This document shows, piece after piece, positions 11,404 through 48,947 of a stretch of DNA of 61,195 nt. The stretch comes from an uncultured Bacteroidota bacterium (GTDB lineage: Bacteria; Bacteroidota; Bacteroidia; Bacteroidales; F082): contig CAJVXP010000011.1 in NCBI GenBank assembly GCA_913009685.1, forward strand, positions 1 through 61,195. Reading direction: 5' to 3'. Position 1 is the first letter of the stretch. The number at the start of each line of letters is the position of its first letter. The position numbers and the translations under genes are program-made. A model generated the notes under the pieces. The model did no database searches. It saw only the letters and a program-made list of their open reading frames with translations, and was not told where the DNA came from.

Positions 11404-11484
11404 CAAGAGCAAACAGTGGTATAAAGATACTATTTACACGTCTGTTAGACGGATGCGTTTTGTTTTTTCATTGAACTTCTTTTA

Positions 11485-11600
11485 ATTTATCATTTCCCAT
11501 CCGCCAAAAGCGGACGGGTTAGGTATTGGCACCTTTTCCGCTTGTGCGGAAGGTTGCCAGAGCTTCACAGAGCCTAATCTCTCCACCCTTCTTTATAAAT
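11485..11600 (-). ncRNA. SAM-I (S-box) riboswitch in the metH-metF leader
   Basis: Read on the minus strand, the conserved S-box core is visible in order: GGTGGAGAGATTAGGC, GTGAAGC, GGCAACC, the P3 hairpin TTCCGC/GCGGAA, then AAGGTGCCAAT. P4 follows as CCCGTCCGC/GCGGATGGG (9 bp, including one G-U pair). P1 can form from ATTTAT (11600-11595) and ATAAAT (11490-11485). It lies between a TATCTTTG promoter box at 11641-11648 and metH. S-box RNAs bind S-adenosylmethionine and lower expression when SAM is plentiful. Confidence 0.92.
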
Positions 11601-11640
11601 CAAAATACCTCACAGAAAAGGAGGGATTTGAATTATGAAG

Positions 11641-18293: not shown

Positions 18294-18517
18294 GGGTCTG
18301 CTGAAAAAGTCCGTAGTGCATCAGATACAAGGCCGCAAGGCGAAGCTGTATACTAATACTGCGAGCCATAGCAACGAAGTAGATGATGTGCTACGGGCTA
18401 ACTAAACAAAAAATGCAGGGAAATTAACGTCTTTCAGTCAAAAACTTTGCATTTGAAGTTGCTGAGTTTAATATATCTTATTGATTATTATCTAATAGAG
18501 TGTTTTTCAGCAGACCC
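18294..18517. mobile_element. MITE-like element with 15-bp inverted repeats and TACATA duplication
   Basis: The 224-bp element starts with GGGTCTGCTGAAAAA (18294-18308) and ends with its exact reverse complement (18503-18517). The hexamer TACATA directly repeats on both sides (18288-18293 and 18518-18523), which is the mark of transposition. No transposase frame is present inside, so it must be mobilised by an enzyme encoded elsewhere. The insertion is 14 bp after the glnS stop codon. Family assignment is not possible without a search. Confidence 0.88.
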
Positions 18518-18651: not shown

Positions 18652-19185
18652 TCATTTTACCACTTTGCCTAATCGCTCTTTCTCATTTTTTTTTCGTTTT
18701 TCTTTATAAAAGGCCTTATCCGCCACATATAGTTTTTTATCCAATTCGGCATAGACCTTTCCTGCTTTGTCCTCAAAATGCACTGGCAGACTCAGGGTCA
18801 TTTCTTTTTGCTTTGCCACTGTTTCTTTTATTTCGGCAATCAGTTCATCGGTTACCAAAAAGCGGGCACAAACCTGATGACTTATGGGGCGTATAAACTT
18901 CACGACAGCTTCTTTGTCCCAAACCACATAACCGGAGCCGAGGATGCGTATTAGTTGAATCATGTATATGGGGTCAAGAGCCGAATAGATACTTCCGCCA
19001 TAGACGGTTCCTACATAATTCCTTGTTTTCCAGGTGAGTTTAACCGACACATGAATCTCTTTCCAGTCATTGGAGATAAAACGAACCCTGCCACCGGAAC
19101 GATGATAAGCGGGAAAAAGATTGAAACCGAACCGTTCTGTTTTTGTTTTGAAGCTTTCTGCTTTTTCTGTCTTAAAACACTTCAC
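18652..19185 (-). CDS. DUF4442 hotdog-fold thioesterase-like protein
   Basis: A 177-residue protein resembling the DUF4442 family of hotdog-fold putative thioesterases. Seen: a segment FISNDWKEIHVSVKL, the NYVGTVYGGSIYSALDPIY helix typical of the fold (compare HGGxxxxLAD in acyl-CoA thioesterases) and a downstream strand VVKFIRPI. Substrate unknown. The first codon is GTG at 19185, and no in-frame ATG exists upstream before a stop. The gene was probably originally 15 bp behind manA, but a MITE now separates them. The C-terminal 30 residues are very Lys/Glu-rich. Confidence 0.8.
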   Translation of the reverse strand: MKCFKTEKAESFKTKTERFGFNLFPAYHRSGGRVRFISNDWKEIHVSVKLTWKTRNYVGTVYGGSIYSALDPIYMIQLIRILGSGYVVWDKEAVVKFIRPISHQVCARFLVTDELIAEIKETVAKQKEMTLSLPVHFEDKAGKVYAELDKKLYVADKAFYKEKRKKNEKERLGKVVK

Positions 19186-19204
19186 ATCGCAGTTATTAAA
19201 TTAA

Positions 19205-19466
19205 GGGGACTTCTAATAATTCCTTTCTTTCAAGAAACAAATGAGATAAACAAGATACAAGGCATAAATTTTTCTGAATAGCCGTAGCTATTGATAAAAA
19301 TTTTAACGCTGTCAGATTGTTTATCTCATTTGTTCCCATGGGGTTTCCAGAGTTTTTCATATACTTCTTCAATTTTTCTTGCATTATCCCGATAGTACAT
19401 CAAAAATTTTCATCGTCTATAAAAAACTCTGAAAATCTTGATGCGAAGTAATTATTAGAAGTTCCC
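19205..19466. mobile_element. MITE-like element inserted at the manA stop codon (TTAA duplication)
   Basis: The ends GGGGACTTCTAATAATT (19205-19221) and the matching right end (19450-19466, one mismatch) are inverted. TTAA repeats directly on both sides (19201-19204 and 19467-19470). The right TTAA contains the manA stop codon, so the insertion preserved the stop exactly. The interior (262 bp in all) holds nested inverted words, AACAAATGAGATAAACAA against TTGTTTATCTCATTTGTT, and CAGAGTTTTT against AAAAACTCTG, so it can fold into a branched structure. No transposase is encoded. A 56-bp relative is at 48892. Confidence 0.9.
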
Positions 19467-20447
19467 TTAAGCCAGATAAATCTCAAGCAATTTTGCCGTA
19501 CCTGTTGGTTTGAGTTCAATTTGGTTGATTATGTTGGGAAGAACAACTGCTTCGCCTGTATTAATTTCCTCTTCGCCATCCGGCCATTTCAGGGTACTCT
19601 GACCTTCAATGCCCATATAAATGACAAATGAATCAAGCTCTTCAAAATTTTTCTTCATAGGCCGGTCGTATTCTAACAGGTTAGTGGTAAACTGCGGGCA
19701 CTGCACCAGCGAAACGGTTTTATTTTTTTCCGGTTTGTACCGGGTTTTGTACTCTCCGGCTACCTCAAAATCGATGGCATCCAATGCTTTTTCTGTGTGA
19801 AGGTCCCTTTTCATGCCGCTGGCATCAATACGGTCCCAATCGTAAATGCGGTAGGTGGTGTCGGAAGTCTGCTGAATTTCGGCCAGCAAAATACCGGGGC
19901 CGAGGGCATGAACGCGCCCTGCAGGAATAAAAAACACATCGCCTTTTTCTGCTTTTTCGAAGTTGAGAATCTCTTTTAACCTGCTCTCATTCAAATATTT
20001 CTTGTAGGTTTCTTTGTTCACTTTTTTGCTGAACCCACTGATGAGTTCCGACTCTTTTTCGGCTTCCATGATGTACCACATTTCGGTCTTTCCCCGTCCG
20101 ATTCTACGTTTGGCGGCCAGCTCATCATCCGGGTGTACCTGAATGGAAAGCCAGTCGCTGGCATCGATATATTTTATGAGCAGCGGAAACTCATCGCCGA
20201 ATTTCTCATACACTTCATCGCCGACTAAATCGCCCATGTAAATGCTCACCAGCTCATTCAGCTCGTTGCCGGTCAGAAAACCGTTTGACACCAGTGTGGG
20301 ATTACCTTCCACACCCGAAACCACCCATGCTTCACCGCAGTTGGGCAACTTTCCGTAATCCATTCCGAGGACTTCTTTTATCTTACGTCCGCCCCAGATT
20401 TTGTCTTTGAAAACGGGCTGAAATTTTAACGGGTAAAGTGTGTTCAT
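19467..20447 (-). CDS. manA: Mannose-6-phosphate isomerase, class I
   Basis: Interconverts fructose-6-phosphate and mannose-6-phosphate, supplying mannose for glycans. The 326-residue length matches the short bacterial type I enzyme. Seen: the N-terminal PVFKDKIWGG, the zinc-binding SIQVHPDDELA (about residues 95-105), the glutamate in GKTEMWYIMEAE and the second histidine in PAGRVHALGPG. Its stop codon overlaps the target duplication of the MITE. A TAACTTTG promoter box lies directly upstream. Confidence 0.95.
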   Translation of the reverse strand: MNTLYPLKFQPVFKDKIWGGRKIKEVLGMDYGKLPNCGEAWVVSGVEGNPTLVSNGFLTGNELNELVSIYMGDLVGDEVYEKFGDEFPLLIKYIDASDWLSIQVHPDDELAAKRRIGRGKTEMWYIMEAEKESELISGFSKKVNKETYKKYLNESRLKEILNFEKAEKGDVFFIPAGRVHALGPGILLAEIQQTSDTTYRIYDWDRIDASGMKRDLHTEKALDAIDFEVAGEYKTRYKPEKNKTVSLVQCPQFTTNLLEYDRPMKKNFEELDSFVIYMGIEGQSTLKWPDGEEEINTGEAVVLPNIINQIELKPTGTAKLLEIYLA

Positions 20448-20472: not shown

Positions 20473-20487
20473 AGAAATTACTCACAG

Positions 20488-20874
20488 GCACAAGCAGACG
20501 CTTGCGTAATTTATAGGAAAGACACAAGCGGACGCTACGCAATTTACAGGAAGGACACAAGCGGACGCTACGCAATTTACAGGAAGGACACAAGCGGACG
20601 CTTGCGCCAGTATTTATTACAAATCCCCCACTTGTCCCACCACAATCACAATTTCCCCTTTCACGGTTTTTTCTTTGTAAAAGTCGTAAACTTCTGTTAG
20701 CGTTCCGCGGATGGTTTTCGTGGAAAACTCATGGCACAAGCGTCCACAAATCAATGGCGCAAGCGTCCGCAAATCAATGGCGCAAGCAGACGCTTGCGTA
20801 ATTTACAGGAAGGGCACAAGCGGACGCTACGCAATTTACAGGAAGGACACAAGCGGACGCTTGCGCCAGTATTT
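20488..20874. repeat. 33-bp repeat array (ACAAGCGGACGCT family) interrupted by a gene fragment
   Basis: Units of 33 bp (starts at 20524, 20557, 20590 and again 20816, 20849) carry the core ACAAGCGGACGCTACGCAAT and a TTTACAGGAAGGAC spacer. A related 23-bp unit, ATGGCGCAAGCGTCCGCAAA, repeats at about 20731-20780. Units are contiguous with no unique spacers, so this is not a CRISPR array. The array brackets a duplicated rsmI 3' end. Confidence 0.85.
20617..20723 (-). pseudogene. Duplicated 3' fragment of rsmI
   Basis: About 107 bp copy the end of rsmI (20876-20985) with three substitutions and one 2-nt deletion. The fragment includes the stop codon and about the last 35 codons, but no start and no upstream gene body. 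The offset between copies is exactly 259 bp and includes adjoining repeat units, so it looks like a tandem duplication mediated by the repeats. It is not expected to make a protein. Confidence 0.88.
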
Positions 20875-20875
20875 A

Positions 20876-21553
20876 TTACAAATCCCCCACTTGTCCCACC
20901 ACAATCACAATTTCCCCTTTTACGGTTTTTTCTTTGTAAAAGTCGTAAACTTCTGTTAGCCTTCCGCGAATGGTTTCTTCGTGGATTTTGGTCAGCTCGC
21001 GGGAAACGGTAACTGGACGTTCCGGGCCGAGAAACTCAGTTAGCTGCTCCAGCGTTTTTACCAGCCGGTGTGGCGATTCGTAAATAATCAAAGTGTGTGG
21101 CAGTTGGGCAAGTTCTTTCAGGCGGGTCTGGCGTCCCTTTTTGTGGGGCAGGAAACCTTCGAAAAAGAACCTGTCGGACGGAAATCCGGAGTTTACCAAC
21201 GCCGGGACAAAAGCCGTGGCTCCCGGCAGTGTCTCCACCGGAATACCGTTTTTCACACATTCGCGCACCAGCAAAAACCCGGGATCGGAAACCGAAGGCG
21301 TGCCGGCATCGCTCACCAGCGCCATCTCTTCACCATCAGACAATCGTTGTACAATATTTTTCAGCGCCTTATGTTCGTTGTGGATGTGATAGGCCTGCAG
21401 TTTGTTGTGTATATCATAGTGCTTCAGCAGGTTCCCCGTTGTACGTGTGTCTTCGGCAAGAATCAGCGATACTTCTTTCAAAATACGTAGCGCCCGCAGG
21501 GTGATATCCCCGAGGTTGCCGATGGGTGTGGGAACGAGATAAAGTTTGGCCAT
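20876..21553 (-). CDS. rsmI: 16S rRNA (cytidine(1402)-2'-O)-methyltransferase
   Basis: Methylates the ribose of C1402 in the ribosomal P site using SAM. The 225 residues form the tetrapyrrole-methylase-like fold: N-terminal PTPIGNLGDITLRALR, the AEDTR motif (about 35-39), LVSDAGTPSVSDPG (about 79-92) and GATAFVPALVNSGFPSD. This copy is complete, and a 3' fragment of it lies downstream in the repeat array. The acidic hypothetical gene ends 13 bp upstream, so the two are probably co-transcribed. Confidence 0.95.
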   Translation of the reverse strand: MAKLYLVPTPIGNLGDITLRALRILKEVSLILAEDTRTTGNLLKHYDIHNKLQAYHIHNEHKALKNIVQRLSDGEEMALVSDAGTPSVSDPGFLLVRECVKNGIPVETLPGATAFVPALVNSGFPSDRFFFEGFLPHKKGRQTRLKELAQLPHTLIIYESPHRLVKTLEQLTEFLGPERPVTVSRELTKIHEETIRGRLTEVYDFYKEKTVKGEIVIVVGQVGDL

Positions 21554-48891: not shown

Positions 48892-48947
48892 GGGGACTTC
48901 TAATAATTACTTTGTTTCTTGAAAGAAAGTAATTATTAGAAGTCCCC
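48892..48947. mobile_element. Minimal 56-bp MITE with 22-bp perfect inverted repeats and ATAA duplication
   Basis: The left arm GGGGACTTCTAATAATTACT plus TT (48892-48913) is the exact reverse complement of the right arm (48926-48947) around a 12-nt centre. ATAA repeats directly at 48888-48891 and 48948-48951. The ends match those of the 262-bp element at 19205, and the centre (reverse strand TTTCTTTCAAGAAACAAA) matches that element just inside its left end, so this is an internally deleted relative. It is the smallest form one could expect to move. Confidence 0.9.

Follow-up and report, generated by a model that had tools for sequence, protein, structure and literature searches.

What is the 262-bp element that lies between manA and a gene for a DUF4442 protein in an uncultured member of the Bacteroidota, how did it come to sit exactly on the manA stop codon, and what did its arrival do to the two genes? 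We addressed these questions in a window of 61,195 nucleotides, the whole stretch of DNA analyzed here. Our reading, which we hold with high confidence, is that a non-autonomous IS5-type miniature inverted-repeat transposable element (MITE) inserted into the TTAA at the manA stop, that the stop was rebuilt and that the effect on the genes was most likely small.

The element at the manA stop codon

The junction comprises the following features.

19205..19466, no strand: MITE of 262 bp, with inverted ends, TTAA flanks and near-full copies elsewhere
19205..19221, plus strand: left terminal inverted repeat, 17 bp, GGGGACTTCTAATAATT
19450..19466, minus strand: right terminal inverted repeat, GGGAACTTCTAATAATT, 16/17 identical to the left
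19201..19204, no strand: left copy of the TTAA target duplication
19467..19470, no strand: right copy of the TTAA target duplication, which holds the manA stop codon (19467-19469, minus strand)
19236..19334, no strand: internal long hairpin A, arms 19236-19273 and 19297-19334
19344..19435, no strand: internal long hairpin B, arms 19344-19388 and 19391-19435
19467..20447, minus strand: manA, type I phosphomannose isomerase, 326 aa, intact (PF20511, PF21621)
18652..19185, minus strand: DUF4442 protein gene, GTG start, 177 aa, intact (PF14539)
19186..19200, minus strand: 15 nt that formerly separated the manA stop from the DUF4442 start

An earlier, sequence-only reading had described a 262-bp element with 17-bp ends carrying one mismatch and a TTAA duplication, and we recovered all of these at the coordinates it claimed; when TTAA is counted in, a repeat finder gave the element inverted arms of 35 nt that are 83% alike. 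The exact placement at the manA stop also held, as on the minus strand the final three bases of the right TTAA are the manA TAA. The MITE transposed into a TTAA made up of the TAA stop and the base just before it, with which the sense codons of manA end, and the stop was retained because insertion duplicated the TTAA. Removing the element together with one TTAA leaves 15 nt (19186-19200) from the manA stop to the GTG at 19185, which reproduces the spacing given earlier, whereas the gap with the element in place is 281 nt. The proposal that manA escaped damage is likewise borne out: its product has 326 aa, the same as in six of eight relatives, the other two having 327 and 331. The open reading frame list of the window holds no frame of at least 80 aa inside the element, and a 108-aa frame that comes from outside overlaps its left part. 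A 24-codon minus-strand frame within it (starting MYYRDNARK) is broken in several copies and was, by eye, rejected as non-coding.

Other features of the neighbourhood were recorded separately. Upstream of manA, positions 20482-20960 carry an array of 33-bp and 23-bp repeats together with two 164-nt copies that are 98% alike (20538-20701 and 20797-20960) and look like a duplication; the second copy extends into the adjacent gene, which we take to be rsmI-like, at its 3' end. A SAM riboswitch lies at 11484-11601 on the minus strand (RF00162, 70.2 bits).

The gene pair without the element in related genomes

A search with the DUF4442 protein covered 60 genomes, 11 of them of the same genus besides the host genome. 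Matches were found in eight of these 11 and were absent from G003, G009 and G010. In all eight, manA lies directly upstream, and the gap from its stop to the aligned DUF4442 start is 2-19 nt: 18 nt in G002, G011 and G005, 19 nt in G004 (where the true DUF4442 start may be several codons earlier than the aligned one), 17 nt in G008, 16 nt in G001, 9 nt in G007 and 2 nt in G006. In four genomes outside the genus that have a DUF4442 match, the flank examined holds no manA. With the pair present in all eight congeners and the insertion in none, the manA-DUF4442 pair is, on gene order, a feature of the genus, and the insertion is absent from all sampled relatives that have the pair.

These junctions agree with the expectation that relatives would carry an empty site with short spacing, and none of them has a long gap without the element, the pattern that had been named as a refutation. 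A TTAA stands at the manA stop in two of the eight empty sites (G011 and G008) and is missing from the other six, the spacers having diverged among the eight; in G011, 18 nt separate this stop from a GTG. That the two genes were formerly a tight pair is therefore supported by all eight congeners with a DUF4442 match, and the claim that an operon was split stands as far as gene order goes, and for gene order alone. By comparison with the empty sites, insertion shifted the DUF4442 start 266 bp further from manA. The site may have been tolerated because almost nothing else can be interrupted in so packed a pair and because the duplication restores the stop.

Copies and spread of the element family

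The 270-bp stretch gave 61 BLASTN matches in the host genome, a count in which incomplete copies are included, as are matches in reverse orientation, some of which are to the arms of the element itself. Near-full copies lie on contigs C1, C26, C22 and C7 at 91-97% identity, and in the same-genus genomes G011 (three) and G002 (two) at 90-94%. The 17-base end pattern, with at most two mismatches, occurs 82 times in the host genome against three times for the reversed pattern. These counts set chance aside as an explanation. Identical 4-bp duplications flank 14 of 18 distinct paired copies (248-329 bp), namely nine TTAA, two TAAA and one each of TTAC, TATA and TTTA; in the remaining four the flanks are non-identical. 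The identification as a MITE is upheld by short length, inverted ends, the lack of a transposase gene, the TTAA duplication, dispersed copies and the empty site in relatives.

Among named GTDB genomes, in a scan that may omit the host genome, the end sequence preceded by WWA was found in 62 stretches. Going by the record labels, and taking the binning of these metagenome-assembled genomes as given, 47 of these belong to Bacteroidota groups, 13 to one Delongbacteria genome, one to Chlorobi and one to BMS3Abin04. Alignment to the window element extends over 31 bases or more in 41/62 stretches, and over 60 or more in 31/62; the other 21 have little in common with it besides the end.

Shorter derivatives were also observed. 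A 56-bp near-perfect palindrome at 48892-48947 of the window is built from this inverted end, present twice, with ATAA on both sides, and is a minimal form of the family; minimal forms of 46-56 bp occur at five loci of other genomes (L129, L132, L143, L144 and L150). On C22 and C21, the same outer repeat carries the element in three states, complete at 262 bp, reduced to 52 bp and as a remnant (L042 and L049 on C22, L091 on C21), a series that looks like stepwise internal loss. Many ends in the host genome are solo, the 17-base end being followed by unrelated DNA without a partner and the kept lengths varying, and these are probably truncated copies. One solo end in the host (L062, on C44) has, over the stretch compared, 60 bases inside and 12 outside that are identical to those of a solo end in another genus (L030, in G012), a likeness that reflects either shared DNA or a binning error.

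Consequences for the downstream gene

The suggestion that the insertion had deprived DUF4442 of its promoter or supplied another was not borne out, since scans of the element found no pattern facing DUF4442, whether of a promoter or of a terminator, that exceeded chance. The manA-sense strand of the element carries neither a terminator-like site nor an above-chance promoter-like one, and we judge read-through from manA to be the most likely way in which DUF4442 would be transcribed. The two genes may still share one message, now with a long folded spacer, or DUF4442 may be expressed at a lower level.

Termination past manA, with DUF4442 silenced as a result, is unlikely. The long hairpins within the spacer would suit it, as might a slight divergence of the protein: DUF4442 is 65.0-71.6% like its relatives (four comparisons), and these are 68.2-80.5% like one another (six comparisons). 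However, no terminator-like site was found in the element on either strand, and the DUF4442 reading frame is intact. An outward promoter donated to DUF4442 by the MITE is somewhat harder still to credit. The minus strand of the element does hold one weak sigma-70-like match (19329-19300, 9/12), but the 2.5-kb region as a whole has four such matches against 4.9 in shuffles. The Bacteroidetes promoter consensus is TTTG-N17-23-TANNTTTG; the element holds no exact instance of it, and its best match to the consensus (8/10) is equalled by 85 of 100 base shuffles, although pattern scans of this kind are weak evidence either way.

Folding and paired changes

The fold predicted for the element, its TTAA copies included, has two long hairpins and an outer stem (-97.6 kcal/mol, z -10.8). 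For counts of base pairs we aligned 15 of the 18 distinct copies, which range from the host's own genus to Flavobacteriaceae, omitting L117 (large internal deletion) and L094 and L095 (329 bp). Pairing was kept in 92.1% of cells against 89.5% in shuffles of the 15 copies. The first figure benefits from the structure having been derived from the window copy, and the shuffle control is inflated by relatedness. Both sides had changed in 19/101 pairs (7.2 in shuffles, 4-8 in slid controls) and in 36 cells (9.2 and 4-10, respectively), while the number of further pair types was ordinary (40 against 37.1, a value reached by 51/500 shuffles). The hairpins thus seem to have been kept by paired changes across the 15 copies.

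Among the 94 pairs that are mostly Watson-Crick, we counted 23 G.T cells, 22 A.C cells and 48 other mismatches. G.T and A.C are therefore equal and no RNA strand is favoured, a balance that suggests folding as DNA over folding as RNA. Selection on the folded DNA and template switching in imperfect palindromes would both fit this mismatch pattern.

The same counts bear on the possibility that the element is a conserved RNA structure of this locus (a leader, attenuator or mRNA-stabilizing hairpin) that regulates DUF4442, which we regard as very improbable. The highly stable predicted fold and the paired changes among copies are what such a structure would have, but the stems hold G.T and A.C mismatches equally, where a single folded RNA strand would be expected to show more G.U, and no Rfam family reached its gathering score here. 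The sequence also recurs at many other loci and is missing from the junction in 8/8 relatives, so that it is not conserved at the orthologous place; a conserved RNA had been named as grounds for abandoning the MITE reading, and the empty sites refute an RNA feature specific to the locus.

The likely mobilizer

By way of a genome that carries the MITE end we reached L217, where a partial transposase sits behind an end with two mismatches to that of the MITE. It scores as NF033581 (transpos_IS5_4, IS5 family; 175.5 bits, cut-off 140), and its relatives were found at 21 loci in 16/393 genomes of the order (E 1e-30). End-like matches with at most four mismatches, many with exactly four, accompany 17 of these 21 loci, as against one of 27 other DDE_Tnp_1 loci of the genus. 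The complete copy at L241 (1289 bp) has TTAA on both sides and ends at one and three mismatches; one end each of L241 (GGGGACTTCTAAAAATT) and L237 matches the MITE end at 16/17 positions, and their duplications (TTAA in L241, AATA in L237) are 4 bp long and A+T-rich, like those of the MITE copies. These insertion sequences differ from the MITE, which has no transposase gene, in encoding a transposase and in measuring about 1.3 kb.

Searches with DDE_Tnp_1 and one IS5_4 query found no transposase with MITE ends in the host genome, which is 88% complete, and the IS5_4 query had no match there at E 1e-30. A parental transposase in the same genome is usual for a MITE but not required. Several candidate partners were rejected. 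The MITE end flanks none of 28 DDE_Tnp_1 matches in 12 genomes of the genus, several of which lie on short contigs; the sole DDE_Tnp_1 gene of the host (L071) has, by eye, different ends (GAGTCTGCTGA and GGGTCTGCTGA); genes adjoining the ends at 10/62 named-genome loci do not look transposase-like, by eye, in their first 120 residues; and a candidate insertion sequence at L093/L227 is cut off at a contig end. A second, unrelated MITE of 224 bp lies downstream of DUF4442 at 18294-18517, with ends GGGTCTGCTGAAAAA and a 6-bp duplication, TACATA, so that DUF4442 lies between two MITE families. It has 16 matches in the host genome, five others being near full length at 97-100% identity, and its ends match those of the L071 region (on C6; NF033578, IS5 family).

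Judged by its ends and duplications, the MITE appears to be an IS5-type derivative, a family link that we consider good. Extrapolating from other families of the order, mobilization by an IS5-type transposase is likely; an enzyme of that family acting on the same kind of ends would have moved the element, and has probably been lost since or lies in the missing part of the assembly. A piggyBac-type element can hardly be entertained: the duplication is TTAA here and in 9/18 paired copies in all, but piggyBac requires strict TTAA, other copies have matching TTAC, TATA, TTTA and TAAA duplications, and the MITE ends resemble those of IS5_4 insertion sequences.

Element edges and stop codons

Of the 82 end matches in the host genome, 72 entered an analysis of edges, the remaining 10 (two-mismatch matches) being left out; three with short flanks and six with no called gene were then set aside. 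This gave 63 edges bordered on the outside by a called gene, and 26 of these face a stop codon. Eight of these 26 lie at -1 to +3 nt of the stop against 6.5% expected (P=1.7e-4), or 8/63 of all edges against 2.9% expected (P=5e-4). The null comprised all non-coding positions of the window alone, weighted by observed target words, with genes called by a home-made finder trained on this window and the two edges of one element scored separately. Two edges with the stop inside the inverted end (gap -12) are impossible under the null and are not among the eight. In the -1 case the TAG is partly composed of element sequence, and its stop may therefore be new.

A second example is found on C39 (L032), where a copy of the element adjoins a gene with orthologs in relatives. 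The G003 ortholog stops at the same residue, with T-TAA and without an element there; the three remaining ortholog loci, two of them in G007 and one in G001, terminate elsewhere. The excess at stop codons may reflect selection against other sites, and we do not claim targeting as shown. A broader proposal, that the family keeps its two hairpins as a folded single DNA strand, required for mobility or arising from template switching at replication forks, and also prefers stop codons, which the duplication can rebuild, is put forward tentatively, as we think it possible but on balance doubtful.

Relation to known elements

None of three 17-letter forms of the MITE and insertion sequence ends was found in the open-licence literature, with subscription journals, supplements and databases such as ISfinder beyond the scope of the search, and the family may be undescribed. 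The insertion event itself is of an ordinary kind, and MITEs are an already known type. Cardinium, from which one such element has been described, also belongs to the Bacteroidota. The Cardinium element MITECca01, in an endosymbiont, resembles ours in being about 240 bp long, derived from an insertion sequence and mostly intergenic; it differs in having as likely parent an IS982-family element that is still intact in the same genome (PMC9769881). MITEAba12 is similarly conserved in many genomes and a second genus, with one copy at a gene 3' end, but it is 111-114 bp long with a 9-bp duplication, its likely mobilizer is ISAba12 and outward transcripts are reported for it (PMC6382973). REPINs share with our element a palindromic mobile DNA, solo remnants and compensatory changes in hairpins, for which they are a published precedent in mobile palindromes; they are linked to RAYT tyrosine transposases, whereas the present element has DDE-type ends and 4-bp duplications (PMC3116915).

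Set beside its empty counterparts in relatives, which confirm it, the junction is a clean example of a mobile element that came to lie within a tight gene pair and left both reading frames unharmed, because the target sequence of the element and the stop codon coincide. If the excess at stop codons and the strand-symmetric paired changes are also seen in complete genomes, they would bear on where elements can live in gene-dense genomes and on which of their DNA is constrained.
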